A model generated the notes under the pieces. That model was not told the origin of the DNA, made no database searches, and was given only the letters and a program-made list of their open reading frames with translations. Both the position numbers and the translations under genes were made by a program. Positions 29,070 to 64,000 of a stretch of 64,000 nt of DNA are shown here, piece by piece; position 1 is the stretch's first letter; every line of letters starts with the position of its first letter. This DNA is from an uncultured Maribacter sp. (GTDB taxonomy: Bacteria; Bacteroidota; Bacteroidia; Flavobacteriales; Flavobacteriaceae): NCBI RefSeq assembly GCF_947495965.1, contig NZ_CANMBB010000004.1:62001-126000 (forward strand), written 5' to 3'.

Positions 29070-29088
29070 GCCTGTTTTTAGGCTTTTT
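29068..29088. terminator. Bidirectional terminator between mutB and marR
   Basis: AAGCCT (29068-29073) pairs with AGGCTT (29080-29085) around a six-base loop and is followed by T residues on the plus strand. It overlaps the mutB stop (29067-29069) and the last codons of marR (stop at 29078), so the converging units share it. Confidence 0.65.
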
Positions 29089-29596
29089 CAGCATCAATAA
29101 GTTTGTGAAAAGATTTAATCTTTTCGTCTTCATTAACTAATTTAGTAGTGCATTGTTCTAAAAACCTAAGAAAAGAATCTTTTTCATCAGAAGAAAATCC
29201 TTCGGTAAGGAAATGAATAACACCTAGTCTTGAGGGTTGCGTTTTATCTATTAAAGCAATTCCTTTTTTAGTTAATCTAAGACGTTTTTTTCTACGGTCT
29301 TGCCCATCTTCAAACTGTTTTATCAATTTCTTATCTAAAAGTACATTGATAAGATTCGTTATATTTGCTCTAGAAACATTTAAAGATTCTGCTAATTCGC
29401 TAGCCATAAGGTCTTTAACGTGTTTTTCTCTTTTGAAAAAAGGAAGATTAGGATTGCCTGAAAGGTGCAATAATATAAGCCATTGTTGTGTGGTTAGACC
29501 AACTTTTAAATAGACATCATCACCAATCTTTTTAAGTTGATTAGCTAAATCAAAAATACTTAATACAATAGATTCTTCAATGCTTTTATTAATCAT
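29078..29596 (-). CDS. MarR-family transcriptional regulator
   Basis: A 172-residue winged-helix regulator with the MarR order of an N-terminal dimerisation helix, HTH recognition region (about 60-100, LAESLNVSRANITNLINVLLDKKLI) and wing (DGQDRRKKRLRLTKKG). Proteins of this family bind palindromic DNA as dimers and respond to small ligands. It is the only regulator seen inside the catabolic region, and palindromes of one type precede nearly all promoters from 21.8 to 62.9 kb. It is therefore the leading candidate for their regulator. It has its own TATATTTG element (complement 29629-29636). Confidence 0.87.
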   Translation of the reverse strand: MINKSIEESIVLSIFDLANQLKKIGDDVYLKVGLTTQQWLILLHLSGNPNLPFFKREKHVKDLMASELAESLNVSRANITNLINVLLDKKLIKQFEDGQDRRKKRLRLTKKGIALIDKTQPSRLGVIHFLTEGFSSDEKDSFLRFLEQCTTKLVNEDEKIKSFHKLIDAEKA

Positions 29597-29628
29597 GGTG
29601 TGTTTAGTTTATGTATAAAAATGGCGTG

Positions 29629-29669
29629 CAAATATATAATTTATATGCTTAATTATATAGTTTGTTAAC
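29629..29669 (-). promoter_or_regulatory. marR promoter with partial operator
   Basis: TATATTTG (complement 29629-29636) is a full TAnnTTTG match, 33 bases before the marR start. A single half-site GTTAAC (29664-29669) flanked by imperfect repeats lies over the expected -33 region, inside the last codons of the nitrilase gene. Autoregulation is plausible but the site is weaker than the others. Confidence 0.4.
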
Positions 29670-30662
29670 TACTTTTAGTTGGGTTTGTATAAATAATTCT
29701 TTATTAGGAATTTTATCTTCAAAAGAATTAGCAGGATAATGTTTATAAGTAGCATAAGAATAAGAGTATAGTTCAAATCTTTGTCTTGCAATATAGTTTT
29801 GCATGGATATTTTGGAACGATAATCTCTTAATGCATTAATGTCTATATAACTGTTTGCTACCATACTATCTCCCGTGCCAGCTTCAGAAAGTACATGTCC
29901 TTCAAAATGTACAATTTTAGATAATCCATCCGTACTTGCAAATGGGAATTCTATTCCAGAAATACCTGCAGAGTTTGCAGAAACGGTGTAGGCCATATTT
30001 TCAATAGAACGAGCTCTTTTTGCAATATCTTTATGTGTTAAATTAGGGCTGCCGGCTTCAGAAGAAGAATGTAAAAATATTTCTGCTCCTCGCATCATTA
30101 AGCAGCGTGCAATTTCTGGGTATAATATTTCTTCAGATGCAATACAGGCTAATTTTCCAAGTTTTGTATTTGCAACAGGAAACAAGGATTCTTCACCATA
30201 TAGTTTTATATATTTATCCAGAACATCATGAGGTGTGGGGGCAAACATAGAATTTAAACGTCTATATTTTAAAATAAGTTCTCCTTCATCATCTATAATA
30301 AAGCTACTTTGGAAATATAAGTCTGGAAAATTTTCATCCAATTCATAAAAATTACCAGATAAAAAAATAGATTCTTTTTTACAGAACTCTTTCATTTGCG
30401 AAAAAAGAGTATGATCTGTAGTTATACAAGCTTTGTTATGCCATTCTTTTATAGATTCTCCAAAAGGGAAGCTAGTTAAAAAATATTCTGGTAATACAAC
30501 TAGTTTTAAATCTGGGCCTATAAATTTTTTAGAACCACTAGTTTGTGCTAATACAGTATTTAATGTTTTTTGCATTAATGCATGAGCAGATTCCTTGTCT
30601 TTACAAGAGTTTATTGCTGCACATTCTATTTGTAGCGCTAAAGCTTTGTATCTTTTTATCAA
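29649..30662 (-). CDS. Carbon-nitrogen hydrolase (nitrilase superfamily)
   Basis: A 337-residue cytosolic amidase or nitrilase. The Glu-Lys-Cys triad is visible at Glu59 (VLPEYF), Lys132 (LILKYRR) and Cys173 (KLACIASEE). The family hydrolyses amides, N-carbamoyl amides or nitriles. Its promoter carries the longest operator in the region and marR lies 52 bases downstream, so it is co-regulated with the catabolic genes. A role in cleaving an amide or nitrile group of the substrate or a side product is inferred; the exact substrate is unknown. Confidence 0.78.
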   Translation of the reverse strand: MIKRYKALALQIECAAINSCKDKESAHALMQKTLNTVLAQTSGSKKFIGPDLKLVVLPEYFLTSFPFGESIKEWHNKACITTDHTLFSQMKEFCKKESIFLSGNFYELDENFPDLYFQSSFIIDDEGELILKYRRLNSMFAPTPHDVLDKYIKLYGEESLFPVANTKLGKLACIASEEILYPEIARCLMMRGAEIFLHSSSEAGSPNLTHKDIAKRARSIENMAYTVSANSAGISGIEFPFASTDGLSKIVHFEGHVLSEAGTGDSMVANSYIDINALRDYRSKISMQNYIARQRFELYSYSYATYKHYPANSFEDKIPNKELFIQTQLKVVNKLYN

Positions 30663-30691
30663 TGGATATTTTTTTAATGATTTTCTTAAAG

Positions 30692-30730: not shown

Positions 30731-30768
30731 GAAATTCATTCTTTCTGTGATAAAAGATATTAAAGTTA

Positions 30769-31881
30769 TTAATTAGTAAGTTTAAACTCTAATTCTTGAA
30801 TTGGGGTATTTTTTGTTGGTTCTGTTTTTTCAATAATTTGCCAGCTTACACCTGCAGTATCTTTAAAAACAAAAGCATTTTCTTCAAATTCATTCTTTAG
30901 TATTTGTGTAGGGTTTAGTTTATGTTCTAAAACTAATTTATGAACCATTTTTAGTTTGGGGGTATAAAAAGAATGAAGTGTAATTCCTTTTTCGCCTACT
31001 TTTTGTTTATCAGATTTATTGGTTTTATCTCCTCTTGGAATAAAAAATTTCATTTTACCACAAATATTATTAGGAGACACAAATCCTTGGTACCAATGAC
31101 TATAGCCAGGTTCCATTTGAAAAACACGTTTAGGACCTTTTAACCAATCGCCATCTATAGCAGGCGCTTCTTCTGCCTGTAGTCCTAAAGCAGAAGATAA
31201 ATAAGACATTTGTTCTAAAGATGTGGCATTAATAACAAAATCATGATGTGTAAATTCACTTGTTTTAAGAGCAGTATCATCTTCAATAGTACCATAACCT
31301 GGAATTTTGTACCCATAACGTTGAAAGAAAATATGATTAAAAAACTCTCCATAAACAGCATTTTCACGGACTATTATTGGTCTATTAAAAAAATCTTTCT
31401 CTTCAGTATTTAATCCAAAAAGGTCATCTGCAATAGGCTCTGTAGGTAGCCATGGTTTCTTACCATCTTCTCTTGCAGTTTGGTATATATCAAATAATCT
31501 AAAAATATCATTGGTGCGCATAACAGCTATTCTTGAACCAATAGTTTCTACAGGAGCATAACCAATACCTTCTCCAAGTGGTTTTTCCCATTCTAATATA
31601 CGTAACAAGCCATGGCTATCTATGGTACCATTTTGTAAACGGTATGAGGTAAGTTTAGAGTCTACACCATAAAGTGTTTTAGCTTTTTTTGCAGTAATAG
31701 AAGAACTATCTATTACTTTAAAACCAAAGTCTCCAAAGTATTTTTTTGCATATTCCGCATTACTTACACCAATCATTACTTCATATAATCCACTAATGCC
31801 AGTGTCTGGCAGTTTTTGTGTTACAGCTTTTGTTGTCATAAAATGTATAGTTAATAGTAAAGTGTATTTTCTTAAAAACAT
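30769..31881 (-). CDS. Two-domain VOC-family protein (glyoxalase/extradiol-dioxygenase fold)
   Basis: A 370-residue protein with two VOC modules: GLYEVMIGVSNAEYAKKYFGDFGFKV (about 31-56) and EFTHHDFVINATSLEQMSYLSSALGL near 215-240. The second module's HHDF gives a candidate metal ligand, and a glutamate near AGVSWQIIE may be another. Type I extradiol dioxygenases and glyoxalases share this fold; which reaction applies is not clear. The N-terminus (FLRKYTLLLTIHFMTTKAVTQ) could be a signal peptide; if not, the start is the internal Met at 31839. It ends an operon with the MDR reductase. Confidence 0.65.
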   Translation of the reverse strand: MFLRKYTLLLTIHFMTTKAVTQKLPDTGISGLYEVMIGVSNAEYAKKYFGDFGFKVIDSSSITAKKAKTLYGVDSKLTSYRLQNGTIDSHGLLRILEWEKPLGEGIGYAPVETIGSRIAVMRTNDIFRLFDIYQTAREDGKKPWLPTEPIADDLFGLNTEEKDFFNRPIIVRENAVYGEFFNHIFFQRYGYKIPGYGTIEDDTALKTSEFTHHDFVINATSLEQMSYLSSALGLQAEEAPAIDGDWLKGPKRVFQMEPGYSHWYQGFVSPNNICGKMKFFIPRGDKTNKSDKQKVGEKGITLHSFYTPKLKMVHKLVLEHKLNPTQILKNEFEENAFVFKDTAGVSWQIIEKTEPTKNTPIQELEFKLTN

Positions 31882-33047: not shown

Positions 33048-34085
33048 TTGATAAGGAGAAGGAAAGTTACAATAGACAATAAAAACATCCATTTTTACAT
33101 TTTGGGTGCAGGCCCTGCTTTAGTAATGTTTCATCCATCTCCTCATTCTGGAGAGTTGCTACTGCCTTTGGCTAAAGAGTTAGCTTTAGATTATACCGTT
33201 ATTTGTGTAGATACCCCAGGTTATGGTAAGTCTGATGCATTACCTAATAAGCCTATTGATTTAACAAATTATACTGCGGTATTTCATGCGTTTTTTAATA
33301 AACTTAATATGGAACAACCAGTTTTATATGGTTCTGCAACGGGAGCTCAAATAGCAATAAGATATGCTTTAGACTATCCTAATGAAGTGTCTCATATTTT
33401 TTTAGATAATGCAGCTCATTTTAATGATGCTTTAAGAGCAAGAATATTAAAACATTATTTTCCAGATTTAACTCCAGAATTAAGTGGTAGTCATATTAGA
33501 AAAGTTTGGGAAATTACAAATAAAATGTTTCAGTATTTTCCTTGGTGTTTTAATGAAGAAGAATATGCATTACATAGACCACAATTACCCAAAGAAGCTT
33601 TGCATGGTATAGCATTAGATTTTTTTAAGGCAGGAAAAGATTATTATGTAGCATATGAAACTGCTTTTAAACATGAAAAAGCAGAATATGTGCAAGAACT
33701 TAAAGTGCCTACTACTATTTTTAGATGGAAAGGAAGTATCATTAAGCCTTATATAGATGATTTGCTAAGTTTTAAATTTCCAAGTTGTGTAGAAACAGTT
33801 TCAATACCTGAAAGCCATGTAGAAAGAAATTTAGAAATGATAAAGCAACTGCGTAATAAAACAAAAAGGCTCGTAAGTTATAGTCTTCCTGAAGCATTAA
33901 ATATAGAACCCAAAAAAGAAGCTAAAGCTAAAGGAGTTACGCCTAAAAAGACTTTGCCAAAGGTTTTAGAAAACGGCTCTCATTTTATAGAAGCGTGGGA
34001 ATTACTTAAACGCTATAACCCAGAACTTAATGCTGTAGAATTACAAGATTTAATGATTGAATGGTTTTCAAAAAGTAAAAATTAG
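33048..34085 (+). CDS. Alpha/beta-hydrolase-fold protein lacking the Ser nucleophile
   Basis: A 345-residue protein with the alpha/beta-hydrolase fold: HPSPHSG near 29-35 as oxyanion region, then the nucleophile elbow LYGSATGAQ, in which alignment to GxSxG puts alanine (Ala97) at the nucleophile position. A C-terminal His257 (PESHVER) is in place, and Asp120 follows strand 6. Cofactor-free ring-cleaving dioxygenases of this fold rely on a His/Asp pair without needing the serine. No ATG start exists; TTG at 33048 is the only canonical choice but lies within a few bases of the predicted transcription start. It heads a three-gene plus-strand unit. Confidence 0.7.
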   Translation: MIRRRKVTIDNKNIHFYILGAGPALVMFHPSPHSGELLLPLAKELALDYTVICVDTPGYGKSDALPNKPIDLTNYTAVFHAFFNKLNMEQPVLYGSATGAQIAIRYALDYPNEVSHIFLDNAAHFNDALRARILKHYFPDLTPELSGSHIRKVWEITNKMFQYFPWCFNEEEYALHRPQLPKEALHGIALDFFKAGKDYYVAYETAFKHEKAEYVQELKVPTTIFRWKGSIIKPYIDDLLSFKFPSCVETVSIPESHVERNLEMIKQLRNKTKRLVSYSLPEALNIEPKKEAKAKGVTPKKTLPKVLENGSHFIEAWELLKRYNPELNAVELQDLMIEWFSKSKN

Positions 34086-34089
34086 TAAT

Positions 34090-34839
34090 ATGAAATCTAT
34101 ATTTAAATTTCTAGGAATAAATTTTCCTGTTTTTTTTAGTGCAGAAAGTTTTAGTAAAAATAATGAAGAAATATCCAGTGACCTTTCTTTAATAGAAGGA
34201 GAGTGGGATAATTTTCAACAATACTGGCAAGAAAATACAGAAGAAGAAATTCATGGTATTAAAACGGATGATTTACACAGGCATTTATCATTAAAAATAA
34301 AAAAAGAAAAGAAGGGAACTTTTTTAATAGAAGTAAGAGAGGGTAGAAACGGAGAAAATTTTATAGAAAATCTACATTTCTCAATAGAAGACCTAAAAAA
34401 TAATAATGTTAAACTAAGGGGAGATACTCTTTTTATAAAAGGAGAAAATCATTTTAAAAACAAAGATGCCTATAAGTTTATTAGAGTAAGAAAATTTTCT
34501 GGTTGGATAGAATATCCTATAACAGAAGATAATGTACATCATCAAGGAAATCTTGAAATTCATGATCAAGGAGGTATGGCAGAGTTAGCTATTGATGGTG
34601 TAGATTATACCGTAGAATTAACGCAATTAATTTATGGTAAAAAATTAGAAATCATGAAGCTTGCTGTTTATGACATGCCCTTAAATAAGGTGGGTATTAA
34701 TAGCACTTCTATTAGCTATACTTGGGTAAACCCAGATGCAAAAAGAATAGGAATAAATTTAAGGAAAGTTATTTCTGGCTGGACATTTATTGAGCCAGGT
34801 TTAGTTAATCAGAATACCTGGAGAAAAAAAGAAGAATAA
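34090..34839 (+). CDS. Beta-rich protein of unknown function
   Basis: A 249-residue protein; the ATG at 34090 is chosen because the TTG at 34057 lies inside the upstream gene. It opens with LIEGEWDNFQQYW (about 34-46), echoing the GEYDNHEQ opening of the CpcT/CpeT-family protein at 59.4 kb, but it lacks the later PGC motif of that family. The rest is predicted beta strands with repeated GWIEYP and GWTFIEPG segments, suggesting a lipocalin-like barrel. It shares one base with the SDR start. I cannot assign a family with confidence. Confidence 0.55.
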   Translation: MKSIFKFLGINFPVFFSAESFSKNNEEISSDLSLIEGEWDNFQQYWQENTEEEIHGIKTDDLHRHLSLKIKKEKKGTFLIEVREGRNGENFIENLHFSIEDLKNNNVKLRGDTLFIKGENHFKNKDAYKFIRVRKFSGWIEYPITEDNVHHQGNLEIHDQGGMAELAIDGVDYTVELTQLIYGKKLEIMKLAVYDMPLNKVGINSTSISYTWVNPDAKRIGINLRKVISGWTFIEPGLVNQNTWRKKEE

Positions 34840-35587: not shown

Positions 35588-36361
35588 TTATCCCATGGTT
35601 CCTTTTACCAAACCACCATCTACAGAAATAGTTTGTCCAGAGATATAACTACTATGTGGCGATAATAGCCAAAGTGCTAAAGATGCAAAATCTTCTGGCT
35701 TTCCTATTTTTTCCATTGCAGCTTGTTTAGCTACAGAAGCTCTAACCTCAGATTCCGGAATTCCTTTAAGTTCACTATTTTTCTTAAATAAATTTTCCAT
35801 GCGTTGTGTAGCATGAAATCCAGGGCCAAGAATGTTTAAGGTAACCCCAGAAGTTCCTATTTCTTGAGAAAGTGTTTTTACATAACCCACTACAGCTAAT
35901 CGCATGGCGTTGCTAAGTACTAAATTTTCTATAGGCTGTTTTACAGAGACACTTTCTATGTAAAGTAAACGCCCATATTGTTGCTCCATCATTTTAGGTA
36001 GTAGGGCTTGTGTTAACCCAATTTTCCAACGTACTACAGTTTTGTAAGCATCATCCCAATCTGTTAATTTTGTTTCCAAAACAGGCATTGCCGGTGGTCC
36101 GCCAGAGTTAATAACTGCTCCTGTTAAAACTCTATTTCCTATAGTATTTAAGATAGTATCCAAAACTTTTTCATCCGATAAATCGCCAGCAATTATTTCT
36201 ATGTTATCACTTAATTTTTGAAGTTCTTTTAGTTTTTCAATAGTACGGGCAACTGCAATAACTTTAGCGTTCTCAGAAATTAATTGTTCTGTAATTGCTT
36301 TACCAAAACCGCTTGTTGCACCACCAACTAAAAACAGTTTATTGTTAAGATGTAAGTTCAT
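35588..36361 (-). CDS. Divergent SDR lacking the catalytic Tyr and Lys
   Basis: A 257-residue SDR with the Rossmann motif GGATSGFGKAI near 13-23. At the active-site helix the usual YxxxK is replaced: SNAMRLAVVG aligns with YSASKAAVIG, giving Ser for Tyr and Arg for Lys. A recognised subgroup of SDRs has this S-N-x-x-R pattern, so the protein may still be active with different chemistry. Its start overlaps the end of the transporter gene by 17 bases. It is the last gene of the eleven-gene operon. Confidence 0.8.
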   Translation of the reverse strand: MNLHLNNKLFLVGGATSGFGKAITEQLISENAKVIAVARTIEKLKELQKLSDNIEIIAGDLSDEKVLDTILNTIGNRVLTGAVINSGGPPAMPVLETKLTDWDDAYKTVVRWKIGLTQALLPKMMEQQYGRLLYIESVSVKQPIENLVLSNAMRLAVVGYVKTLSQEIGTSGVTLNILGPGFHATQRMENLFKKNSELKGIPESEVRASVAKQAAMEKIGKPEDFASLALWLLSPHSSYISGQTISVDGGLVKGTMG

Positions 36362-37247
36362 TTTGTTTATTTATTATTTTTTTGAAAAAGAAAATTACTC
36401 CCACAGCAATTATACACATTACTACACCATAAACACCTGCTGTAGCGGCCATCTTTGGTTCGTTTAATAATCCTGCAGAAAGTGCAATTGTCATTCCTAG
36501 AACATTATTTTGCATACCAGTCTCTATAGCAATAGTAGCGGCTTGTTTGGTAGATACCTTTAAGGCTTTAGCGCTAAAAAAACCAACAGATAAAGTTATA
36601 ATATTAAGTAAAATAACCCCTAAAAAAGAAGCTTTAATAAAAAACCAACTATCGCCAATTTCTTCAAGTTTCATAACCATTAGTACTAGAGCTAAAACAA
36701 TTACTATTCCAGAACCCCAAGAAATTACGGGTTTGCTTTTTTCTGAGAAATCTGGAAATTTATTATTAATGTACATACCAATAAGTACTGGTAGCGCAGT
36801 TAATTTAAAAATATTTAGAATTGTTGGTCCAATTGGTAATTGTATGTTTTTAGAGGCTGCCCCTAAAATAGTATCTAACGAAAAGTTTATAATAAAAGGA
36901 ATTGTAACAATGGTAACTAAACTTGTAATAGCAGTTAAGCTTATAGATAAGGCTGTGTCTCCTTTAGCTAAGTGCGAAAATAAATTAGAAACAGCGCCGC
37001 CAGGACAAGAGGCTACAACCATTAACCCCATTGCAATCATAGGTTGCATAGGGATAATAGAAATAATGGTGAATGCTATTATAGGAACCATAACAATTTG
37101 ATTAAATAAACCAATAAAAATGGCTTTTGGAGCTGTACCAACACGTTTAAAATCTTTAGCGGTTAGTGTAAGTCCCATTCCTAACATAACTAGAAATAAA
37201 ATAGTTTGAAGAATGACAGGTATGTATGTTAAAATTTGCTCTGTCAT
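36345..37247 (-). CDS. BASS-family (bile acid:sodium symporter-like) transporter
   Basis: A 300-residue membrane protein with about nine or ten hydrophobic segments, matching the BASS/SBF family that imports organic anions with sodium. Conserved features include the ASCPGGAVSNLFSHLAKGDTALS region (about 79-101) and the later AIETGMQNN motif near 237. Its position after the imidase-like genes suggests that it moves a small carboxylate substrate or product of the pathway across the inner membrane. Confidence 0.82.
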   Translation of the reverse strand: MTEQILTYIPVILQTILFLVMLGMGLTLTAKDFKRVGTAPKAIFIGLFNQIVMVPIIAFTIISIIPMQPMIAMGLMVVASCPGGAVSNLFSHLAKGDTALSISLTAITSLVTIVTIPFIINFSLDTILGAASKNIQLPIGPTILNIFKLTALPVLIGMYINNKFPDFSEKSKPVISWGSGIVIVLALVLMVMKLEEIGDSWFFIKASFLGVILLNIITLSVGFFSAKALKVSTKQAATIAIETGMQNNVLGMTIALSAGLLNEPKMAATAGVYGVVMCIIAVGVIFFFKKIINKQNELTS

Positions 37248-37255: not shown

Positions 37256-38176
37256 TTAATTATTTTTCCAAGCGTTTAAAATAGTATTAGATGAAGCAGA
37301 CCAAACTGCTTCATGACTACCAAGATACTCTAAAATTTTTTCTAAATATTTTATTCTATGCGGTTGCCCTAGTACCCATGGATGAATATTTATACTTAAA
37401 ATTCTTCCTCCTTGCGTTTCCGTTTCTTGTAACAGAAAATGAAAAGCATCTATTACTTGATGTTTCCAATCTTCAGCGGAATGAAGATTGTTTAAAATAA
37501 TAAAATGATCATCTAATTCTGTAGTCAATGGCATAGCTGTTAAGATACCATTTTTTGTTTTAAAATTGTATGGCATTTCATCATTTACCCAATCGCAAAA
37601 ATAAGTAATGCCATTTTCTGCTAATATATCTGGGGTGTTTTCCGATTCATTTTTTGCAGGACTAACCCAACCATTAATTTCTTGACCAGTAAGTTTTCGT
37701 AAACTATCTAAAGAACGTTTTACAAGTTCTTCTTCCTCCTTTATGTTTTGCCCTCCATAATGTAATTTGTCCATGTCATAACCATGACATAAAATTTCAT
37801 TACCTCTATCTTTTAATGTTCCTGTTAGATAGGGTAGACGTTCTGCCAATCTAGTGTTCATAGCAAAAGTAGGAGTAATGTTATATTTGTCTAATGCTTT
37901 TAAAAAGCGATAAATTCCAATTCTGTTACCATAATCTCGTAAGCTGTAGTGTCTTAAATCGGGATAAGGCTTTGTCATACCACCAGGAACTTTAAATGGT
38001 ATTCCTTTTTGATTTAATGGAAAAAATTGAACACCAACATTTACCCAAAGAGCTATTTTTTTACCATTAGGCCAAGTAATAGGTTTTCTGTTACTAAGCA
38101 TATCCCAATCATAACGGTCGTGATCCATGCCATACGAGCGTTCCGGATACTCTAGGTAGGTTTTATTTAGTGCCAT
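37256..38176 (-). CDS. Polysaccharide-deacetylase-family protein, PuuE/imidase type (second copy)
   Basis: A NodB-homology domain protein of about 306 residues. The start is set at the Met of MALNKTYLEY (38176), because the longer reading adds 14 residues that overlap the upstream gene. YSLRDYGNRIG is characteristic of the PuuE/allantoinase and cyclic-imide-hydrolase branch rather than chitin deacetylases, and LTTELDDHF sits where those enzymes have their second metal-region motif. There is no signal peptide, so cytosolic C-N ring hydrolysis is favoured. Its ATG overlaps the end of the preceding paralog, indicating tandem duplication and coupling. Confidence 0.75.
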   Translation of the reverse strand: MALNKTYLEYPERSYGMDHDRYDWDMLSNRKPITWPNGKKIALWVNVGVQFFPLNQKGIPFKVPGGMTKPYPDLRHYSLRDYGNRIGIYRFLKALDKYNITPTFAMNTRLAERLPYLTGTLKDRGNEILCHGYDMDKLHYGGQNIKEEEELVKRSLDSLRKLTGQEINGWVSPAKNESENTPDILAENGITYFCDWVNDEMPYNFKTKNGILTAMPLTTELDDHFIILNNLHSAEDWKHQVIDAFHFLLQETETQGGRILSINIHPWVLGQPHRIKYLEKILEYLGSHEAVWSASSNTILNAWKNN

Positions 38177-39113
38177 ATTTCTTGTTTTTTTGATGAATGT
38201 CTTCCAAAGAGGCATCATAATAATTGTCTAAATAGTAAGAAGCTATTTCTTTCCCTGTTGTTATCCAAACATCAGAATGTCCTGTAATATATTCTAAAGC
38301 CTCTTCATAAGCTTTTATTCTATGCGCATTGGTTACCTGGTAATTGTGGGTAGGAATACACATAATGGTTCCACTTTCGGCTCCTTCTGCATAAAGGCGG
38401 TCAAAATTATCTTTAAGTTCTTGTCCGTATCTACGAGGAGTTATTTTTTGCACTAAATATGCTATTGTATCATTCATTTCTAAAGAATACGGAATAGAAG
38501 CAAAACGTTTCCCACTTCTTAAATTAATGGGAGTTGGTTGGTCATCGTGAAACAAATCACAAGAATAGAACCCTGCTTCATCTCCAAAAAGTTCTGTACC
38601 AACTTCTGCGAATAAATCTAAGGTGTTTTCGGAATGTGAAAGTGCGGGAGCTAAATATCCTGCACATTTTTGCCCTGTATGTTTATATATAGTTTCTATA
38701 GAATCTTTAATCATTTCTCTTTCCTGAGTTTCAGACATCCCGTAGGTATAGCGTGTATTATAAATACCATGGCTAAAAAATTCCCAATTACGTTCTTTAC
38801 ACAATTCTATTATTTCAGGATGATGGTCACATAAAGCAGTAGATAAAGAAATAGAACCACGAATACCGTATTTTTCTAAAAGCTTCATCTGGCGAATATG
38901 GCCAACTCTATTACCCCAATCTCTACTGGTATAACCAGGTAAAGCAGGACTAGGTTGCGGCCAAGGTTTCCTAAACGGATTATCTGGCGGGTTAAGCTCA
39001 TAAAATTCAATATTTGGAGCTACCCAAAAAGCAACTTTAGCGCCATTTGGCCATTTTATTTTTGGTCTGTTTTCATAAGGCCAATAATCGTAATATCCTG
39101 GGTCTTCCTTCAT
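38163..39113 (-). CDS. Polysaccharide-deacetylase-family protein, PuuE/imidase type (first copy)
   Basis: A 316-residue NodB-fold protein with no signal peptide. YTSRDWGNRVG (about 80-90) and SLEMNDTIAYL near 215 match the PuuE and cyclic-imide-hydrolase branch. Enzymes of this branch open cyclic ureides or imides, and some members hydrolyse maleimide or succinimide to half-amides. Its neighbour encodes an isochorismatase-family hydrolase that could cleave such a half-amide. It lies two bases from that gene, and its stop overlaps the start of the second copy. Substrate is inferred from family and context. Confidence 0.76.
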   Translation of the reverse strand: MKEDPGYYDYWPYENRPKIKWPNGAKVAFWVAPNIEFYELNPPDNPFRKPWPQPSPALPGYTSRDWGNRVGHIRQMKLLEKYGIRGSISLSTALCDHHPEIIELCKERNWEFFSHGIYNTRYTYGMSETQEREMIKDSIETIYKHTGQKCAGYLAPALSHSENTLDLFAEVGTELFGDEAGFYSCDLFHDDQPTPINLRSGKRFASIPYSLEMNDTIAYLVQKITPRRYGQELKDNFDRLYAEGAESGTIMCIPTHNYQVTNAHRIKAYEEALEYITGHSDVWITTGKEIASYYLDNYYDASLEDIHQKNKKYGTK

Positions 39114-39115: not shown

Positions 39116-39778
39116 TTATATACTATTTAGCCATGTAAAAACTTCATCCACTTCAAGTACGTCACAATATTTTAAAGATAAATCTGTAAGATTTGCATAA
39201 TGGTAACTCTCATGTTTATCTGCAACGCATTCTTCAGGAATTATAGTTCTATATCCTCTAGAAAGAGAATCTACTCCTGCAGCTCTAATACAGCCAGAAG
39301 TAGAGCCACCAGTAAGAATAATAGTATCTACCTGATGCCATACTAAAAGGGATTGTAATGGAGTTTCAAAAAAAGGAGAAGGCATTTTCTTTTCATAAAA
39401 AACATCGGTGCTCCTATCTAAAATTAAACGATCATCTAATTCCGAACGTTCGGAACCAAATTTTATGTTTTGTAAACTATCTGGAGTGTCGGTTCGGGTT
39501 CCCCAGATACCAGCATCTGCAGCAGTATCCATATAAGCAACATTGGTCCAGACTACTGGCCATCCTAATTTTCTGAATTTTGCAGCAAGCTCGTTTACGT
39601 AATCTAATTGTTTGGGATCCGCTTCATAGGCTGTTTTAAAAAGGTCTGTTCTTGTGTATGCTTTTTGAATATCTATATTAACCAGGGCAGCTTTTTTTCC
39701 AAATCCAAAACGTTTACGAGCAGGGTTGGCCTTTACTTCAAAATAAAGTTCTTTTGCGGTTTTATTTGTAGTCTGCAT
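39116..39778 (-). CDS. Isochorismatase-family cysteine hydrolase (maleamate/carbamoylsarcosine amidase-like)
   Basis: A 220-residue cytosolic amidohydrolase with the Asp36-Lys130/131-Cys163 set: NIDIQKAYT, YEKKMPSPFFET and TGGSTSGCIRAAGVDSL. The STSGC-x-RA signature is typical of N-carbamoylsarcosine amidase and maleamate amidohydrolase (NicF type) rather than true isochorismatase. Maleamate amidases release ammonia from the half-amide of an unsaturated diacid. It lies between the SnoaL-like gene and the imidase-like pair, the order expected if it takes their product. Confidence 0.84.
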   Translation of the reverse strand: MQTTNKTAKELYFEVKANPARKRFGFGKKAALVNIDIQKAYTRTDLFKTAYEADPKQLDYVNELAAKFRKLGWPVVWTNVAYMDTAADAGIWGTRTDTPDSLQNIKFGSERSELDDRLILDRSTDVFYEKKMPSPFFETPLQSLLVWHQVDTIILTGGSTSGCIRAAGVDSLSRGYRTIIPEECVADKHESYHYANLTDLSLKYCDVLEVDEVFTWLNSI

Positions 39779-39801: not shown

Positions 39802-40239
39802 TTACCTTTTATTTTTCTTCTTAATTTTTGAGGATTGCATAGAAATTATAACCCAATTAGTTTCTTGTTTTTTCCATACTACAGTAAGTCTATATTCCCC
39901 TTCATCAAGCCCTTTAAACTTTCGTTTGTTACTATAATTTGTTAGAATTACATTAGTATCAATATTTAAAAAGGAAATATCCGAATTCTCATAACTTTCA
40001 AAAGCGTTCTTAATATTAGCTAAGGCTTCTTTTTTACTATATTTTTTTCCACTTTGTGAAGTAAGAATAAGATTATCATGGTATATTTTATCTGCCAAGA
40101 CTGCATCGCTATTTAGATGTGCGGTTTTTAAATTCGTAATCTGAAGTAATATTTGTTCTTTTTCAGCAGTACTTATTTCTTGAGAAATACAACCCATGTA
40201 AATAAATAACGTACAAAATATGGTAGCTACTAATTTCAT
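39802..40239 (-). CDS. SnoaL/DUF4440-like lipoprotein
   Basis: A 145-residue protein with a lipobox (IYMGCIS, Cys at about residue 17) and an NTF2/SnoaL-like fold of the DUF4440 type. Such folds bind or cyclise small hydrophobic molecules, or serve as scaffolds. The tail KIKKKNKR is basic. It is exported although the surrounding operon is otherwise cytosolic. It lies four bases from the CoA-transferase gene. Role in the pathway is unknown. Confidence 0.65.
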   Translation of the reverse strand: MKLVATIFCTLFIYMGCISQEISTAEKEQILLQITNLKTAHLNSDAVLADKIYHDNLILTSQSGKKYSKKEALANIKNAFESYENSDISFLNIDTNVILTNYSNKRKFKGLDEGEYRLTVVWKKQETNWVIISMQSSKIKKKNKR

Positions 40240-44658: not shown

Positions 44659-44685
44659 AAATTAGTTAACTAAGTTAACTAATTT
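44659..44685. promoter_or_regulatory. Catabolic-regulon operator, eleven-gene minus operon
   Basis: A 27-base perfect palindrome, GTTAAC-TAA-GTTAAC... with AAATTA and TAATTT wings around a central base. It is the exact reverse complement of the site at 21804-21830. It lies 20 bases upstream of the HMG-CoA-lyase-like start, so the transcript leader must be very short. No strong TAnnTTTG is seen in the intervening bases. Confidence 0.72.
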
Positions 44686-44787
44686 TATTGAAATAGCCTA
44701 TTTTAAAATAGAAAAGTAGGTTTTATAGGTATAAAAAAAGTAACTTATATATGGTATGTTTTATATAAAAAGAAGCTAAAGTGCTAA

Positions 44788-44814: not shown

Positions 44815-44853
44815 CTATTTTACATAAAAATAGTTCTCATAGAATTTTTGAAA

Positions 44854-54259: not shown

Positions 54260-55543
54260 ATGATTGAATTTAAATTACCATCCTTAGGAGAAGGCATAGA
54301 AAAAGGAACTATAATTTCTATCTTAGTAAAAGAAGGGGATACCATAGAGGCAGAACAATCTTTAATAGAGGTAGAAACAGATAAAGTAGTAGTAGAGGTA
54401 CCTGCAGAGCAAGGTGGCGTAATAGCCTCTGTTTTAGTTGCTATTGGCGATGAAATAGGAGAAGGAACTCCTTTTTTAAAATTAACAGGAGGAGGAGATA
54501 CTTCTGCTGCAAAAGAACCTATTAAAGAAGAAAAACACGTTGCTAAAAAAGAAGAGCTTAAACCTAAAGAGGAACCTGTAATAGAAGAACCTGCTAAAGT
54601 TGCGGTTGCAGCGCCTGTTGTTGCGTCACCAAAAATAGAGATACAAACAGAACTTAAAAAAGGGTATAGAGCATCTCCTTTAGCAAGAAAAATGGCAAAA
54701 GAAATTGGCATTAATTTGGCTAATGTTCCGTTAACCAGAGAAACTAAAAGAATTTCTTTACAAGATGTAAAAGATTTTGCCAAACAATTAAATGAGGGTA
54801 GAGCAAAAGGAATAGGCACTACGAATTTACCAGACTTTACTAAATGGGGAAGTATTTCTAAAAAGCCTTTATCAGGAATATCGCAAGCTACAAGTAAAAA
54901 CATGAGTGGGTCTTGGTCTGTTATTCCGCATGCATGGTTACAGGAAAAAGTAGATATTACTAAATTAGAAGCAAAGCGTCAGGAGCATAAAATTGCTATA
55001 AAAGAAAAAGGAGGAGCATTAACAATTACTAGTATTTTGGTAAAGGTGGTTGCCAAGGCATTAGAAAATTATCCTATTTTTAATTGTAGTTATGATACTA
55101 ATACTAATGAAATAATCTATAAAGATTTTATTAATGTTGGAGTAGCAGTAGATACAGATCGTGGACTTTTAGTGCCAGGTTTAAAAAGCCCAAATACTAA
55201 AAGTATTAGCCAAATAGCCATGGAATTAACAGATGTTTCTACCAAGGTAAAGCAAAAGAAAGTTTCTAAAGAAGATTTAGAGGGTATTACTTTTACTATT
55301 TCTAATCTTGGTGGAATTGGAACTACAGCTATTTTTCCTTTAGTAGCTTTTCCTCAAGTTGCTATTTTAGGAGTTGCTGCTAGTGCAACGGAGCCGGTTT
55401 GGGTAGATGGGGAGTTTAAACCCAGACTACTAATGCCTATTACTATTGGTTTTGACCATAGAATAATTAATGGAGCAGATGCAGCACGTTTCATAAAACA
55501 TATAAAAGAGCTTTTAGAAGACTGGTTTTTGCTAAGCTTATAA
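54260..55543 (+). CDS. aceF: Dihydrolipoamide acyltransferase E2
   Basis: The 427-residue E2 core of a 2-oxoacid dehydrogenase. A lipoyl domain with the modified Lys42 (VETDKVVVEVP) is followed by a linker, an E1/E3-binding domain (YRASPLARKMAKEIGINL, about 134-151) and the catalytic domain. The active site is His400 in DHRIINGAD, with Asn404 where many E2 enzymes have Asp; this HRxxNG form occurs in AceF-type enzymes. Only one lipoyl domain is present. No E3 gene is in the window, so a shared E3 is likely. Confidence 0.88.
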   Translation: MIEFKLPSLGEGIEKGTIISILVKEGDTIEAEQSLIEVETDKVVVEVPAEQGGVIASVLVAIGDEIGEGTPFLKLTGGGDTSAAKEPIKEEKHVAKKEELKPKEEPVIEEPAKVAVAAPVVASPKIEIQTELKKGYRASPLARKMAKEIGINLANVPLTRETKRISLQDVKDFAKQLNEGRAKGIGTTNLPDFTKWGSISKKPLSGISQATSKNMSGSWSVIPHAWLQEKVDITKLEAKRQEHKIAIKEKGGALTITSILVKVVAKALENYPIFNCSYDTNTNEIIYKDFINVGVAVDTDRGLLVPGLKSPNTKSISQIAMELTDVSTKVKQKKVSKEDLEGITFTISNLGGIGTTAIFPLVAFPQVAILGVAASATEPVWVDGEFKPRLLMPITIGFDHRIINGADAARFIKHIKELLEDWFLLSL

Positions 55544-55562: not shown

Positions 55563-56225
55563 ATGAGCGTATTTTTAATTCTTAAATATTTTCACATTTT
55601 GTTATTTGTATTTTGGTTAGGGACAGATATGGGAACCTATTATTCTAGCAAGTTTGTAATAAACTCAAAACTTACGGCTCCGCAACGAGCAACAGCATTA
55701 CAAATTTTATTAGGTTGTGATTTGGGTCCCCGTATGGCTATGCCTTTAATTATGCCTACAGGAATTCATATGGCTAGTATAATGGGAGCTGTAAAAATTA
55801 GTAATCTTGGACTTGGCCTACTATGGGGGGCAGCGTTACTCTGGCTGTTTTTAGTTTTAAAAGTCCATTTTGGAAAAGATGAAACAAAAAAAAAGAATCT
55901 AAAAGAGATAGATTTTTGGATACGTCCTATTATTGTATTTGGAGTATCTGCTTTTGCTATATATTCCTTATTCGTTCCAACATATATTGTAGCGCCTTGG
56001 ATATCGTATAAATTATTAATTGTCTGTGCATTAATACTTTTTGGTTTAGGAATAAGACATCAATTAGGAATATTTACACCTGCATTTGTGAATCTAATGC
56101 AAGGAAAAAATATAGAGGAATCTAATGCTATTATGAAGACTAGAATGGATAAATGCCTTCCTTATGTTTATGGTATTTGGATTGGTCTACTACTTAATGC
56201 CGCTTTTGGAGTACACTTAATTTAA
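55563..56225 (+). CDS. Integral membrane protein, CopD/DUF2269-like
   Basis: A 220-residue membrane protein with six or so hydrophobic segments and conserved histidines (YFHILLFVFWLGTDMG near 9-24, PTGIHMAS near 72-79). This resembles the CopD/DUF2269 group, in which such histidines may bind heme or copper. It lies between the E2 gene (19 bases) and an uncharacterised soluble-protein gene (7 bases), so it belongs to the pyruvate dehydrogenase unit. Function is unknown. Confidence 0.6.
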   Translation: MSVFLILKYFHILLFVFWLGTDMGTYYSSKFVINSKLTAPQRATALQILLGCDLGPRMAMPLIMPTGIHMASIMGAVKISNLGLGLLWGAALLWLFLVLKVHFGKDETKKKNLKEIDFWIRPIIVFGVSAFAIYSLFVPTYIVAPWISYKLLIVCALILFGLGIRHQLGIFTPAFVNLMQGKNIEESNAIMKTRMDKCLPYVYGIWIGLLLNAAFGVHLI

Positions 56226-56232
56226 TTTAAAT

Positions 56233-56955
56233 ATGAAGCATAAAACCATAAGAGGATATATTAGGTATACTAGTAAAAAGCCAGAACGATTAAATGAAGA
56301 AAGAGGACGAGAGTTTTTTACTATAACTACACAGCGTGATGCAAAAGTAGTTATGCAAGCACATTGTGAAATTGATGACGCTCCTAATGTGGTTCGTGAT
56401 GTGGTTTTAGCAATGGAAAAAGATGGCACGCCCATAGATTGTAGTGTTCGTTTATCTGTTGGAGATCAATTTGAGGGCTCAGGATGGTTTCGTATTACAC
56501 CTACTTATGCAGAATGCGAAATGATTAACCGTAGCGATGGCCGCATTTCTCAAAAAATTGAAGTTACCTCACCTGTTCGTTGGTTACAAGCGCATCCTAT
56601 TGTAGGCGATGGTATTTTAATGAAAACCTATGATTTATCTAAAGGCCCAGGAAAGCAAGTTTTAAAAGATTTTATGCTTACCTCTCCAGACCATAGAGGT
56701 GCTACTGGGCCAATGCTCTTTAAAATGACAAAAATGAGTATAGAATATATAGGCGAAGAAGAAATCACTATTGCTGCAGGGACATTTAAAGCGCGTCATT
56801 TTGCCGTGGGAGACACTGCAGGGAGTCTTCTAGAAGAACATCCGCCTTACCATGTTTGGGTAACAGCAGATGAGGATTACTTATTCTTAAAGGCAAGTGC
56901 TGCAGGGTATATGCAAACACATTATGAACTAGAGAGTGTAGAATATTTTAATTGA
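56233..56955 (+). CDS. Uncharacterised beta-rich protein
   Basis: A 240-residue protein with no signal peptide, rich in predicted beta strands. It has no motif I can assign. Conserved-looking segments are SVRLSVGDQFEGSGWFRI near 77-94 and EEEITIAAGTFKARHFAVGDTAG near 175-197, the latter like the C-terminal half of DUF3108-type proteins. It closes the four-gene pyruvate dehydrogenase unit and converges with the quinone-reductase gene 21 bases away. Confidence 0.5.
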   Translation: MKHKTIRGYIRYTSKKPERLNEERGREFFTITTQRDAKVVMQAHCEIDDAPNVVRDVVLAMEKDGTPIDCSVRLSVGDQFEGSGWFRITPTYAECEMINRSDGRISQKIEVTSPVRWLQAHPIVGDGILMKTYDLSKGPGKQVLKDFMLTSPDHRGATGPMLFKMTKMSIEYIGEEEITIAAGTFKARHFAVGDTAGSLLEEHPPYHVWVTADEDYLFLKASAAGYMQTHYELESVEYFN

Positions 56956-59409: not shown

Positions 59410-60120
59410 TTATTTACAAGTTTGTTCTTTTAGGTTAATTGTTGGTCCTTTATCATGTACCCCAAAAACAGCGTTTCCATCATTATCTGTGGCAGTATCT
59501 TCTAATAGTAAAGCGTCTTTTCTTAAGATTAAGGTTTCATTTAGGTATACTTGTTTTCCAAACCTATCTGAGTAATAATTACATTCGTTTTTCTTTAAAT
59601 ACCCTTTAAAAAAAGAGTCTTCTTTTTTCCAAAAAACATCGCATCCTGGTTTAAGGAAAAAATCATCTTCTGTTAAATCTTCAAACACTTCAGGATTTAA
59701 ATGACCGTTTATTAGTTTCTTAGGTTCTTTTGGAGTGTATATTCTTAGTCTAATAGCTTGTTCTTTTTTAACAATCTCAAAAGCATATATTCTTTGACGA
59801 TACAAATCATTTAAATCATAATGCTGTGATTGCTGTGCGTAAAGTTTTCGGCCTGGAATAAAATCTAATGGTACTTCATGAAATATATGATGTGTTTGTC
59901 GGTGCCTTTTATTTGCTTCTATTTTATCTGTAGCTTCTTTATATACCTGTTCATGATTATCATACTCTCCAGGAAACCATGCTAAAAGGGTATCTAAGTC
60001 TTGTTGTAAGGTGTTATAAGTACTTTCTTTTGAAGAGTTAGTGGTACTATTTTTTGTTTTTGAAGCACTAATTAGAGTACTTACAAGTACTAAAAATAAA
60101 ATTGTTTTATATTTTTTCAT
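59410..60120 (-). CDS. CpcT/CpeT-family (bilin lyase-like) exported protein
   Basis: A 236-residue protein with a Sec signal peptide (about 1-20). The mature part follows the CpcT/CpeT pattern: LLAWFPGEYDNHEQ (about 46-59), then YAQQSQHYDL and YRQRIYAF (about 95-117), LKPGCDVFWKKED (about 156-168) and a C-terminal GPTI. In cyanobacteria the family attaches or holds bilin chromophores; here there are no phycobiliproteins. It lies between MFS-carrier and lipoprotein genes in a regulated catabolic operon, so bilin or tetrapyrrole binding in the cell envelope is the inferred role. Confidence 0.75.
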   Translation of the reverse strand: MKKYKTILFLVLVSTLISASKTKNSTTNSSKESTYNTLQQDLDTLLAWFPGEYDNHEQVYKEATDKIEANKRHRQTHHIFHEVPLDFIPGRKLYAQQSQHYDLNDLYRQRIYAFEIVKKEQAIRLRIYTPKEPKKLINGHLNPEVFEDLTEDDFFLKPGCDVFWKKEDSFFKGYLKKNECNYYSDRFGKQVYLNETLILRKDALLLEDTATDNDGNAVFGVHDKGPTINLKEQTCK

Positions 60121-62650: not shown

Positions 62651-62958
62651 AGTTTATCTATTTAATTAGTAGTTCATTTTTTATTTAAAAAGCCTTTTTT
62701 CACGAAAAAATTACTCAATTTCCATCAAAAACAGGTAATTAGATTAGTTTTTTTTATTTTGTTTACTAGTTTTTAAGCAACACTTTTTTTGTTTTAAATA
62801 TCTGACAATTAATTAATTGCAATGCTTTTAAGAGTGTTTTTTTAAATTGTTAGACCAAAAATTATTTATAAATTTAATGATTAAGTATGTTAATTATTAA
62901 TAAAATTAACTATTTTTATGAAGTAAATGCAAAACACCTGACTTATAAATAAATTAAT
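62651..62958. other. Divergent intergenic region
   Basis: The 308 bases between the MFS and calycin-like genes hold no ORF. They contain A/T-rich stretches, several T-runs and the operator-like repeat at 62889-62913. On the minus strand TAATTTTTG near the repeat is one base off the TAnnTTTG spacing. Confidence 0.55.
62889..62918. promoter_or_regulatory. Operator-like repeat and -7 element
   Basis: GTTAAT (62889-62894) and ATTAAC (62905-62910) are inverted half-sites ten bases apart, the same spacing as at 32992-33013. TATTTTTA (62911-62918), a near match to TAnnTTTG, follows at once, 41 bases before the ATG at 62959. Confidence 0.45.
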
Positions 62959-63477
62959 ATGAAGAATTATGAATTAAAATTATTTCCTAAACATACAGGG
63001 ATTTGGGAAGGTACATATAGAAGAATAGGAGCAGACGGAATTCTGATAGATCAATGGAAAAGTAGACTTACAATTAGATTTTTACCCGATGGAAGATACC
63101 ATCAAGTAAATCAATATTTCTGGGAAGATGGTTTTGAAGAATGCTTAGATTTTGGAATAAATAGTTTTAATGATAAAGGAGAGCTAATTTTTGAAAATCC
63201 AAGATTATCAGGAAAAGCATGGGAAACTGGTAGGAGTGTGGTTCTTATTTGGGATTATAAACACAGACCAGGAATGACTCTTTTTGAACAAATAGATTTA
63301 ATAGGCAATGACGATCATAGAATAAGAGTTTGGAAATGGTCCGAAAAAGATACCTTCAATGGTGTAACCATGATTGAAGAACGTAAAGTTGCTACAGAAG
63401 AAGAAATAGACCCTCAATTCTGGGTAGACCTTCCTAACAAAAGAACAAACGGACAAGCTTCAAGATCTGATAGTTAA
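62959..63477 (+). CDS. Calycin-like (possibly DUF3598) protein
   Basis: A 172-residue cytosolic protein with no signal peptide. It is beta-rich, with HTGIWEGTYRRIGADGILIDQWKSRLTIRF near 12-41 and a series of Trp and Phe at strand ends, reminiscent of lipocalin-fold proteins such as DUF3598. Such folds bind hydrophobic ligands; the family call is tentative. It starts a plus-strand unit with the second LeuC-like gene 39 bases downstream, under an operator-like repeat. Confidence 0.5.
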   Translation: MKNYELKLFPKHTGIWEGTYRRIGADGILIDQWKSRLTIRFLPDGRYHQVNQYFWEDGFEECLDFGINSFNDKGELIFENPRLSGKAWETGRSVVLIWDYKHRPGMTLFEQIDLIGNDDHRIRVWKWSEKDTFNGVTMIEERKVATEEEIDPQFWVDLPNKRTNGQASRSDS

Positions 63478-63516
63478 TTTCTAACATCAGCTAATAAAAT
63501 TTAAAATACTCATAAT

Positions 63517-64000
63517 ATGGGAATGACCATTACTGAAAAAATTATGGCCCGCAATAGCGGAAGAGACCATGTAGTGCCAGGAGAATTAGTGTGGACAGAT
63601 GTGCATACAGTAATGACAATGGATTACCTTGGTAAAACTTGTTTTGATAAATTTAGATCCCTTGGTAAAACCGAGGTGTTTAATAAAGATAGGGTAATAT
63701 GTGTGTCGGATCACTTAGTGCCTCCTCCAAACCAAAAGTTTGCTACAATGTTAAACGAGTGGAGAGAGGTTGTAAAACAACATGATATTACTAATTTTTA
63801 TGATTTAGGTAGGCAAGGTATTGCACACCAAATTATGGTAGAACAAGGCCATGTACTTCCTGGAACAATAAGTATTGGGACAGATTCTCATGCAAATACA
63901 TATGGTGCCGTTGGTGCCGTTGGTAATGCAATAGGAGTTACTGATGCCGCTGTAGCTATGGCTACTGGAAAAGCATGGTTTAGAATTCCAAAAACAGTAA
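63517..64000 (+). CDS. LeuC-like aconitase-family hydratase, second paralog (partial)
   Basis: The N-terminal 161 codons of a large subunit that runs off the right edge. ITEKIMARNSGRDHVVPGELVW and IGTDSHANTYGAVGAVGNAIGVTDAAVAMATGKAW match the family and align with the 42.5 kb LeuC over the same regions, but the sequences differ substantially. It lies after the calycin-like gene. A small-subunit gene would be expected beyond the edge. Either a second hydratase of the pathway or an ordinary isopropylmalate isomerase is possible. Confidence 0.83.
   Translation, partial: MGMTITEKIMARNSGRDHVVPGELVWTDVHTVMTMDYLGKTCFDKFRSLGKTEVFNKDRVICVSDHLVPPPNQKFATMLNEWREVVKQHDITNFYDLGRQGIAHQIMVEQGHVLPGTISIGTDSHANTYGAVGAVGNAIGVTDAAVAMATGKAWFRIPKTV

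Follow-up and report, generated by a model that had tools for sequence, protein, structure and literature searches.

Two described bacterial routes come closest to the system analysed here. The anaerobic fermentation of nicotinate proceeds through the dimethylmaleate hydratase DmdAB and 2,3-dimethylmalate lyase, and a cyclic-imide pathway handles succinimide or maleimide by means of an imidase and a half-amidase. Chlorophylls and bilins are made and destroyed at huge scale, and the portions of the open-access literature available among the matches listed describe no bacterial gene set that takes monopyrrole fragments of tetrapyrroles to central metabolism. We examined a 64,000-nucleotide stretch of DNA from an uncultured Maribacter sp. 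(contig NZ_CANMBB010000004.1, C4:62001-126000; genome of 3.9 Mb in 35 contigs), hereafter the window. It holds much of an island of about 77 kb (contig ~84-161 kb, that is, the window from 22 kb plus ~35 kb past its end), for which the original prediction had proposed the breakdown of a cyclic imide, possibly a tetrapyrrole-derived dialkylmaleimide. The gene content of the island, its conservation, its operator and the co-occurrence of its hydrolases with two further protein families are set out below. From these sequence data we infer reactions, induction and substrate alike, and on balance we favour the reading that the island is a regulon for the catabolism of dialkylmaleimides and lactams fed by tetrapyrroles.

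Genes were called in the window from a list of open reading frames (ORFs) together with hidden Markov model (HMM) scans against NCBIfam/TIGRFAM and Pfam, and only part of the island proteins has been annotated. The PuuE-type pair, the isochorismatase-type enzyme, CaiB, LeuCD, the HMG-CoA-lyase type, AceE/E2 and CpeT are all present where the original prediction had placed them. Its PCC/MCM genes are genuine too, but lie at 22387-29069, outside the range that it had given for the system. The proposed entry to the pathway is a unit of three hydrolase genes (the triad):

37256..38218, minus strand: PuuE-type (polysaccharide-deacetylase fold) hydrolase A (PuuA), proposed imide hydrolase (TIGR03212 E 3.4e-33; PuuE allantoinase 3cl6 E 2.9e-24)
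38163..39113, minus strand: PuuE-type hydrolase B (PuuB), second proposed imide hydrolase (TIGR03212 E 1.5e-29; 3cl6 E 3.3e-23)
39116..39778, minus strand: isochorismatase-type amidase, proposed half-amide (maleamate-like) hydrolase (PF00857 98.6 bits, cut-off 27)

Hydrolases A and B both pass the model of the PuuE/polysaccharide-deacetylase superfamily, PF01522 (41.7 and 36.1 bits; gathering 23.1), and both fall outside the PuuE allantoinases proper (TIGR03212, 115 and 103 bits, far under the cut-off of 424.6). The true start of PuuA may lie 3' of the listed ATG, because many homologue alignments begin only at residue 10-17. The amidase is a member of the isochorismatase type in which an Asp, a Lys and a Cys, the expected triad of the family, are conserved at 95% or more across 66 members. 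Scores against the models of RutB (23.9, cut-off 378) and biuret hydrolase (26, cut-off 370) are low, and the relatives of the amidase in the PDB are N-carbamoylsarcosine amidase and isochorismatase-type entries that include 4l07 and 3uao, which we take to be maleamate amidases.

To sample related loci, one genome per species was scanned with hydrolase A, and the best 80 of 121 relatives, chosen by their PuuA match, form the set of 80 loci used throughout. Hydrolase A is present in all 80 by selection. All three genes were found in 78 of the 80, and in every one of the 78 they lie side by side on a single strand, in the order isochorismatase, hydrolase B, hydrolase A. The complete ordered triad recurs across the Bacteroidota and the Alpha-, Beta- and Gammaproteobacteria, in records whose titles include Maribacter, Aquimarina, Croceitalea, Saprospiraceae, SAR92, Paraglaciecola, Halioglobus/NOR5, Kordiimonadaceae and Comamonadaceae, among others. 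Judged by hydrolase A, the nearest named organisms belong to Maribacter, among them Maribacter vaceletii DSM 25230 (L024, 91% identical), and within the Flavobacteriaceae the enzyme is rare, occurring at E 1e-60 in 3 of the 299 genomes sampled.

The triad is also carried by plasmids, of which 43 records matched at 1e-40 and five were examined. It stands with LeuCD and an isocitrate-lyase-type (ICL-type) lyase in Burkholderia plantarii (L118), with CaiB, an HMG-CoA-lyase-type gene and LeuCD in Acidiphilium multivorum (L122), and with two LeuCD pairs, CaiB, an HMG-CoA-lyase-type gene and an ICL-type lyase on plasmid pJE1 of Sphingomonas sp. JE1. In Salipiger abyssi it is accompanied by hydantoinase A/B (HyuAB), FAD, VOC and sulfurtransferase genes, the stretch viewed containing neither LeuCD nor one of the lyases above, and on a Comamonas plasmid by acyl-CoA genes, again with no such lyase over the stretch viewed. 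Because the L118 and L122 plasmids are typed as conjugative and have transposase genes within a few kilobases of the triad, the cassette appears to be mobile.

Beside the triad in the window, on the same strand, lie the genes proposed to hydrate, activate and cleave its product, together with two others:

39802..40239, minus strand: DUF4440/SnoaL-like protein (PF14534) with a signal-like N-terminus, by reading
40244..41422, minus strand: CaiB family III CoA-transferase, proposed alkylmalate activation (PF02515 E 8.9e-108)
41423..41983, minus strand: CMD or peroxidase-related protein (PF02627; TIGR01926 under cut-off)
41987..42496, minus strand: LeuD/DmdB-type hydratase small subunit (TIGR02087 199 bits, cut-off 109)
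42493..43728, minus strand: LeuC/HacA-type hydratase large subunit, proposed dialkylmaleate hydratase (TIGR02086 548 bits, cut-off 410)
43728..44639, minus strand: HMG-CoA-lyase family protein, proposed 2,3-dialkylmalyl-CoA lyase (NF004283 299.2 bits, cut-off 246; PDB 6nds E 1e-69)

The hydratase passes these subfamily models alone and misses the equivalog cut-offs for leucine synthesis (468 versus 611 bits for LEU2, 188.5 versus 246 for leud); the cysteine motifs of LeuC are conserved in 23 members, and the host genome has a further LeuC-like gene at C2:370508. The score of the 43728..44639 protein places it in the HMG-CoA lyase subfamily, and its substrate role is predicted.

Neighbours in the 80 loci were counted from protein clusters within the examined flanks, where many contigs end early; at a strict identity threshold, LeuCD with an ICL-type lyase appeared in 1 of 20 LeuC loci, and the cluster counts are used instead. 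Clusters c24, c54 and c57, from high-GC loci, are probable reverse-strand ORF-calling artefacts and were ignored, and some loci there are under-counted. LeuC or LeuD was found in 30 loci, an HMG-CoA-lyase-type gene in 29, CaiB in 34, an ICL/PEP-mutase-type lyase in 9 and MmgE/PrpD in 11. Of the 30 loci with LeuC/D, 21 combine it with CaiB and the HMG-CoA-lyase type but lack an ICL-type lyase, 4 have the ICL-type lyase but no CoA enzyme, 2 have all three, 1 has CaiB plus the ICL-type lyase, and 2 have only CaiB. The proteobacterial ICL-type lyase belongs to the ICL/PEP-mutase superfamily (PF13714 E 1.5e-41) and has the motif K-R-C-G-H, which we take to be a lyase motif, in 9 of 9 sequences. Its matches are petal death protein (E 7.7e-55), 2-methylisocitrate lyases and 2,3-dimethylmalate lyase (E 2.1e-43). 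Petal death protein reportedly cleaves 2,3-dialkylmalates, among them 2-ethyl-3-methylmalate, the product expected from the hydration of ethylmethylmaleate.

That the LeuCD genes of gammaproteobacterial triads are plain leucine genes was considered and rejected. Five of five genomes with the more divergent of two LeuC types (L047, L049, L066, L067 and L077; L048 stood outside this check) have another full-length LeuC-like gene elsewhere, so that the triad-linked copies look like paralogues. In Comamonadaceae loci the genes nearby encode a further set of hydrolases, MmgE/PrpD and a protein of the Asp/Glu-racemase family, to which maleate isomerase belongs; at L090:10001-20945 and in other Comamonadaceae the triad-like set is duplicated and, with genes for Asp/Glu-racemase, PhyH, SnoaL and a branched-chain-type ABC transporter, makes up a distinct version of the pathway. 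In NOR5-3 an old-yellow-enzyme-type flavoprotein (L077:6210-8195; PF00724, 661 aa) directly adjoins the triad. The bilirubin reductase BilR is a member of the broad old-yellow-enzyme family.

A scan of the intergenic DNA of the island revealed a recurrent palindrome, TAGTTAAC-N3-GTTAACTA, ahead of these operons, including those of PCC/MCM and AceE/E2. Searched as TAGTTAACNNNGTTAACTA with up to 3 mismatches, it matches the window 9 times where 1.25 matches would be expected, and 0 of 100 shuffles reach that number. The matches fall at 7 separate places, all between listed ORFs, and the sites are distributed as follows:

21808: exact operator, before the PCC/MCM operon
30702: operator, before the carbon-nitrogen hydrolase/MarR pair
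33.0 kb: operator, in a divergent promoter
44663 and 44792 (44663..44810): two perfect operators, between the HMG-CoA-lyase-type gene and aldehyde dehydrogenase
50152: operator-like site with 3 mismatches, before DUF1838
51504: operator with 2 mismatches, before AceE

Past the window end, in two stretches termed L008 and L009, L008 has 2 operators against 0.24 expected (5 of 200 shuffles reach 2), one exact and before the hydantoinase-B gene, the other between DUF1838 and VOC genes; L009 has 1, before cytochrome c/FAD-oxidase genes, against 0.30 expected (52 of 200 shuffles reach 1). None was found in two 20-kb control stretches (0.38 and 0.45 expected). Because the palindrome was derived from window DNA, the independent test lies in the related loci of other genomes. 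With up to 2 mismatches, 22 Bacteroidota loci (L024-L043, L055 and L074) have 50 matches in 24 kb of intergenic DNA versus 2 in 397 kb of ORFs, and L042 is the only one of them without an operator. The gap between the lyase and aldehyde dehydrogenase genes holds one or two operators in 13 of these 22 loci too. As a common palindromic operator precedes the operons, the regulon is real, and what the original prediction had put forward as one regulon is supported. The MarR protein at 29078, downstream of an operator, is the likely regulator.

The proposed link to tetrapyrroles comes from proteins of two further families:

59410..60120, minus strand: CpeT/CpcT-family protein with a signal-like N-terminus (PF06206 E 5e-28, 98.7 bits, gathering 21; CpcT 4o4o E 2.7e-7)
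34057..34839, plus strand: CpeT-like protein of no Pfam family (E 2.4e-27 with a profile of other CpeT proteins)
50486..51352, plus strand: DUF1838 protein, divergent (PF08894)

The host genome has four Pfam-level CpeT genes, all at 121-157 kb of the contig, and the CpeT-like gene at 34057-34839 is a fifth. The CpeT/CpcT membership noted in the original prediction is confirmed and extended to five proteins in the island, though such membership is no proof that they bind bilins. We followed both families genome-wide in 60 relatives, 299 Flavobacteriaceae and 194 genomes of the order of gamma proteobacterium NOR5-3, using hydrolase A rather than the whole triad as the reference. Among the 60 relatives, the six with a close hydrolase A (G000, G001, G003, G005, G007 and G033; E at most 6.9e-169) carry 3 or 4 CpeT genes, all on the contig of the hydrolase, and four genomes without one have a single CpeT. 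G028 and G040 match hydrolase A weakly (2e-18 and 1e-21), and G040 is one of those four. DUF1838 is present in exactly the same 6 of 60, in 3 or 4 copies each. In the Flavobacteriaceae, at least three CpeT genes (3 or 4) occur in exactly the 3 genomes that have hydrolase A at E 1e-60. In the NOR5-3 order, where hydrolase A is found below 1e-100 in 13 genomes, all 6 genomes with CpeT and all 8 with DUF1838 are among those 13. This cut was chosen after viewing the list: 21 of 194 match at 1e-40, 13 of them at 5.4e-114 or below and the other 8 at 3e-52 or above, and none of these 8 has CpeT or DUF1838. The association probabilities (2.5e-8, 3e-11, 2.3e-7 and 2e-8) treat related genomes as independent and are descriptive only. 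Shared ancestry keeps the counts from being independent draws, but two distant groups agree, and the bilin link is stronger than in the original prediction, with strong indirect support.

A second group of non-cyanobacterial CpeT proteins, single-copy and of a higher-scoring type, occurs in 19 Flavobacteriaceae without a close hydrolase A. No shared fold is claimed for DUF1838 with CpeT or with the DUF3108-like protein described below, the profile-profile probabilities of 3.6 and 0.2 indicating no relation.

The remaining features of the island within the window are these:

22387..29069, plus strand: propionyl-CoA carboxylase subunits and methylmalonyl-CoA mutase (PCC/MCM), the perfect operator at 21808 standing ahead of the operon
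29078..30662, minus strand: MarR regulator and carbon-nitrogen hydrolase, with the operator at 30702 upstream
30769..31881, minus strand: two-domain VOC-like protein (by eye on an alignment; no Pfam or PDB match)
36345..37247, minus strand: SBF/BASS organic-anion:sodium symporter (PF01758)
44812..46290, plus strand: aldehyde dehydrogenase (HMM scan; protein cluster of 26 including this one)
46309..46872, plus strand: VOC-family protein (PF00903)
47366..50020, minus strand: SusC/RagA-type TonB-dependent receptor, proposed uptake (TIGR04056 E 2.9e-45, 155 bits, under the cut-off of 368)
51570..54239, plus strand: AceE, homodimeric 2-oxoacid dehydrogenase E1 (TIGR00759 1232 bits, cut-off 860)
54260..55543, plus strand: E2 acyltransferase of 2-oxoacid dehydrogenase (TIGR01348 404 bits, under the cut-off of 552)
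55563..56955, plus strand: pair of proteins of no assigned family, the second 63-70% identical to proteins of 12 gammaproteobacterial loci and weakly DUF3108-like
62959..64000, plus strand: start of a second module, with a second LeuC from 63517 that continues past the window end

The DUF3108 match, on a homologue of the second protein of the 55563-56955 pair, scores 20.2 bits, under the gathering threshold of 26; relatives of both proteins lie near the triad on pJE1 (33% and 47% identity). The island continues past the window through L008 and L009 (contig 122-162 kb), which hold another LeuCD pair (44% and 28% identity with the first), an HpaI-type aldolase, the caprolactamase/hydantoinase-type proteins HyuA and HyuB (HyuAB), a flavocytochrome-c-like FAD protein and three Amino_oxidase-family proteins. 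The same stretches encode a methyltransferase that clusters with one of L051, an FGE protein, a rhodanese, YjgF, cytochrome c, three further CpeT and three further DUF1838 proteins, several VOC proteins, a second carbon-nitrogen hydrolase, an amidohydrolase and MFS carriers. L010 holds, by eye, ordinary housekeeping genes.

VOC-fold proteins are numerous in the island (46309-46872; 30769-31881, by eye only; L008:18035-18991; L009:2048-3049, 9153-9641 and 10748-11749) and are candidates for oxidative or binding steps. Sequence searches of the PDB with cluster c14, DUF1838 and the 30769 VOC-like protein gave no meaningful match. The first gene of the second module (62959-63477) encodes a 172-aa protein without a match in the NCBIfam scan, whose HTGIWEGTYRR stretch we presume to resemble DUF3598-type calycins. 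Outside the island, window 34-6387 is a run of arginine and proline synthesis genes (proB, proA, argD-type, proC, argC and argG).

Taken together, the island would be a substrate-inducible catabolic regulon of ~77 kb. The two PuuE-type hydrolases would open substituted cyclic imides, the isochorismatase-type amidase would release ammonia from the half-amide, and LeuCD would hydrate the resulting dialkylmaleate to a dialkylmalate. CaiB would then load CoA and the HMG-CoA-lyase-type enzyme would cleave the product to a 2-oxoacid and propionyl-CoA, to be consumed by AceE/E2 and PCC/MCM; in some proteobacteria a dimethylmalate-lyase-type enzyme may replace or supplement the CoA route. If the malate carbon with the hydroxyl group bears R and its neighbour a methyl group, cleavage would yield R-CO-COOH and propionyl-CoA, that is, 2-oxobutyrate and propionyl-CoA from ethylmethylmaleimide and 2-oxoglutarate and propionyl-CoA from hematinic imide. 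The triad with its recurring LeuCD, CaiB and HMG-CoA-lyase-type or ICL-type lyase supports this order from imide through half-amide, diacid and alkylmalate to carbon-carbon cleavage. The presence of PCC/MCM and AceE/E2 under the same operator fits a methyl-substituted imide, since an unsubstituted one would need no PCC/MCM. The chemistry of the original prediction finds good support in gene conservation, in the swapped-in lyases of the dimethylmalate lyase superfamily and in the operator link, and its individual reactions stay predicted.

The feed would most likely be fragments of tetrapyrroles, derived from bilins or chlorophyll. Binding or breakage of the larger pigment would fall to periplasmic CpeT-like, DUF1838, VOC and FAD proteins, and the opening of its lactam rings to the hydantoinase/caprolactamase-type HyuAB; two hydrolases, two LeuCD pairs and a lactam hydrolase suggest more than one type of ring. 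We tentatively entertain a more specific form of this scheme, a dedicated mineralization of linear tetrapyrroles (bilin or opened chlorophyll). Here secreted CpeT-like and DUF1838 proteins, together with VOC proteins and FAD oxidases, would bind the pigment and cut it to imides and lactams of single pyrrole units; conversion of these to 2-oxoacids, propionyl-CoA and ammonia would be the task of the triad, HyuAB, the two LeuCD pairs and matching lyases, under one palindromic operator in the flavobacteria and with spread across phyla partly by plasmids.

Several observations weigh against a tetrapyrrole-fed regulon. No heme oxygenase, bilin reductase, chlorophyll-specific or pigment-cleaving enzyme was seen among the annotated proteins, Staygreen (Mg-dechelatase) being the only such enzyme searched by name; that search had no match in 60 genomes, but it carries no weight, as its control gave none either. 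A CpeT-like gene lies in the examined flanks of only 23 of the 80 loci (57 without), 19 of the 23 being among the 24 Bacteroidota loci, and only 14 of 30 genomes of chosen triad loci have CpeT at all. The gene is not always near, at ~1 Mb from hydrolase A in G425 and ~200 kb in G513, and a single CpeT in 19 of 296 other Flavobacteriaceae means that the family alone is not diagnostic. No downstream lyase or hydratase gene (LeuC/D, HMG-CoA-lyase type, CaiB, ICL-type or MmgE/PrpD) was found in 30 of the 80 loci, whose flanks are often short, and the LeuC proteins of proteobacteria fall into two types, with 39-40% and 29-33% identity to that of the window. The operator was absent from the 58 remaining loci (1.0 Mb, including Saprospiraceae L045 and L046), which are unmatched in base composition. 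The core chemistry from imide through alkylmalate to lyase could be right, with an imide from another natural product or a xenobiotic and with CpeT-like and DUF1838 proteins that bind some other hydrophobic ligand. Such a source would suit the many triad loci and genomes that lack CpeT and the plasmid versions in soil, plant and activated-sludge bacteria, and the open-access text available among the matches listed gives CpeT-family proteins no role outside cyanobacteria. However, CpeT and DUF1838 follow the hydrolases in two phyla, and dialkylmaleimides are known, among abundant natural compounds, chiefly from tetrapyrroles. Methylvinylmaleimide (MVM) arises from bilirubin oxidation, according to the portion of text available from PMC5997574. 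We regard another source of the imide as unlikely, though worth serious attention.

Two further explanations would change the chemistry itself. In the first, the substrates of the PuuE-type enzymes would be ureides, hydantoins or pyrimidine products, and LeuCD, CaiB and the lyase would form a pathway of their own, tied to the hydrolases by nothing more than the operator. The kinship of the hydrolases with PuuE, RutB, biuret and N-carbamoylsarcosine hydrolases and the hydantoinase-type genes close by are in keeping with this idea, but the scores against the allantoinase, RutB and biuret hydrolase models fall far short, and triad, LeuCD and lyase recur together in distant lineages and on plasmids; we consider it improbable. 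We give still less credence to a route that degrades a carbocyclic or amino-acid-like compound, such as one of the leucine or itaconate type, with the hydrolases in a side role. HMG-CoA lyase and CaiB do occur in leucine and itaconate breakdown, and the operator is common to the propionyl-CoA genes, but the unit kept in nearly all loci (which were selected by one hydrolase) is three C-N hydrolases and not the CoA enzymes, and the latter can be missing where an ICL-type lyase occurs. A dialkylmaleimide regulon remains our preferred reading. For the tetrapyrrole source named in the original prediction, the tracking of the hydrolases by CpeT and DUF1838 counts in favour, and the lack of an identified tetrapyrrole-opening enzyme and of CpeT-like genes in most flanks counts against.

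A conserved set in cultivable bacteria such as M. vaceletii DSM 25230 makes the fate of monopyrroles a directly testable question, and the pathway would supply a context for DUF1838 and for non-cyanobacterial CpeT-family proteins. Among known systems, the tail of nicotinate fermentation shares with the island a LeuD/DmdB-family hydratase and a dialkylmalate lyase, several proteobacterial lyases being of the same superfamily. The island differs in being fed by imide hydrolases and an amidase and in using mostly a CoA-transferase/HMG-CoA-lyase-type step, and no nicotinate enzymes are named in its annotated part. The succinimide or maleimide pathway has in common with it ring opening followed by half-amide hydrolysis, whereas the two PuuE-type hydrolases, the hydratase/lyase tail and the propionyl-CoA genes under the same operator point to a methyl-substituted imide. 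With PuuE allantoinase, hydrolases A and B share a fold family and can be aligned across the catalytic region, but they lie far under the cut-off of its model, and no ureide gene is named among those annotated in the island. The phycobiliprotein lyases CpcT and CpeT, finally, have a detectable sequence relationship to the island proteins, from the match to 4o4o and the above-cut-off PF06206 score; the island proteins differ from them in being multi-copy, in having signal-like N-termini (by eye) and in standing in an island whose annotated part names no phycobiliprotein gene.

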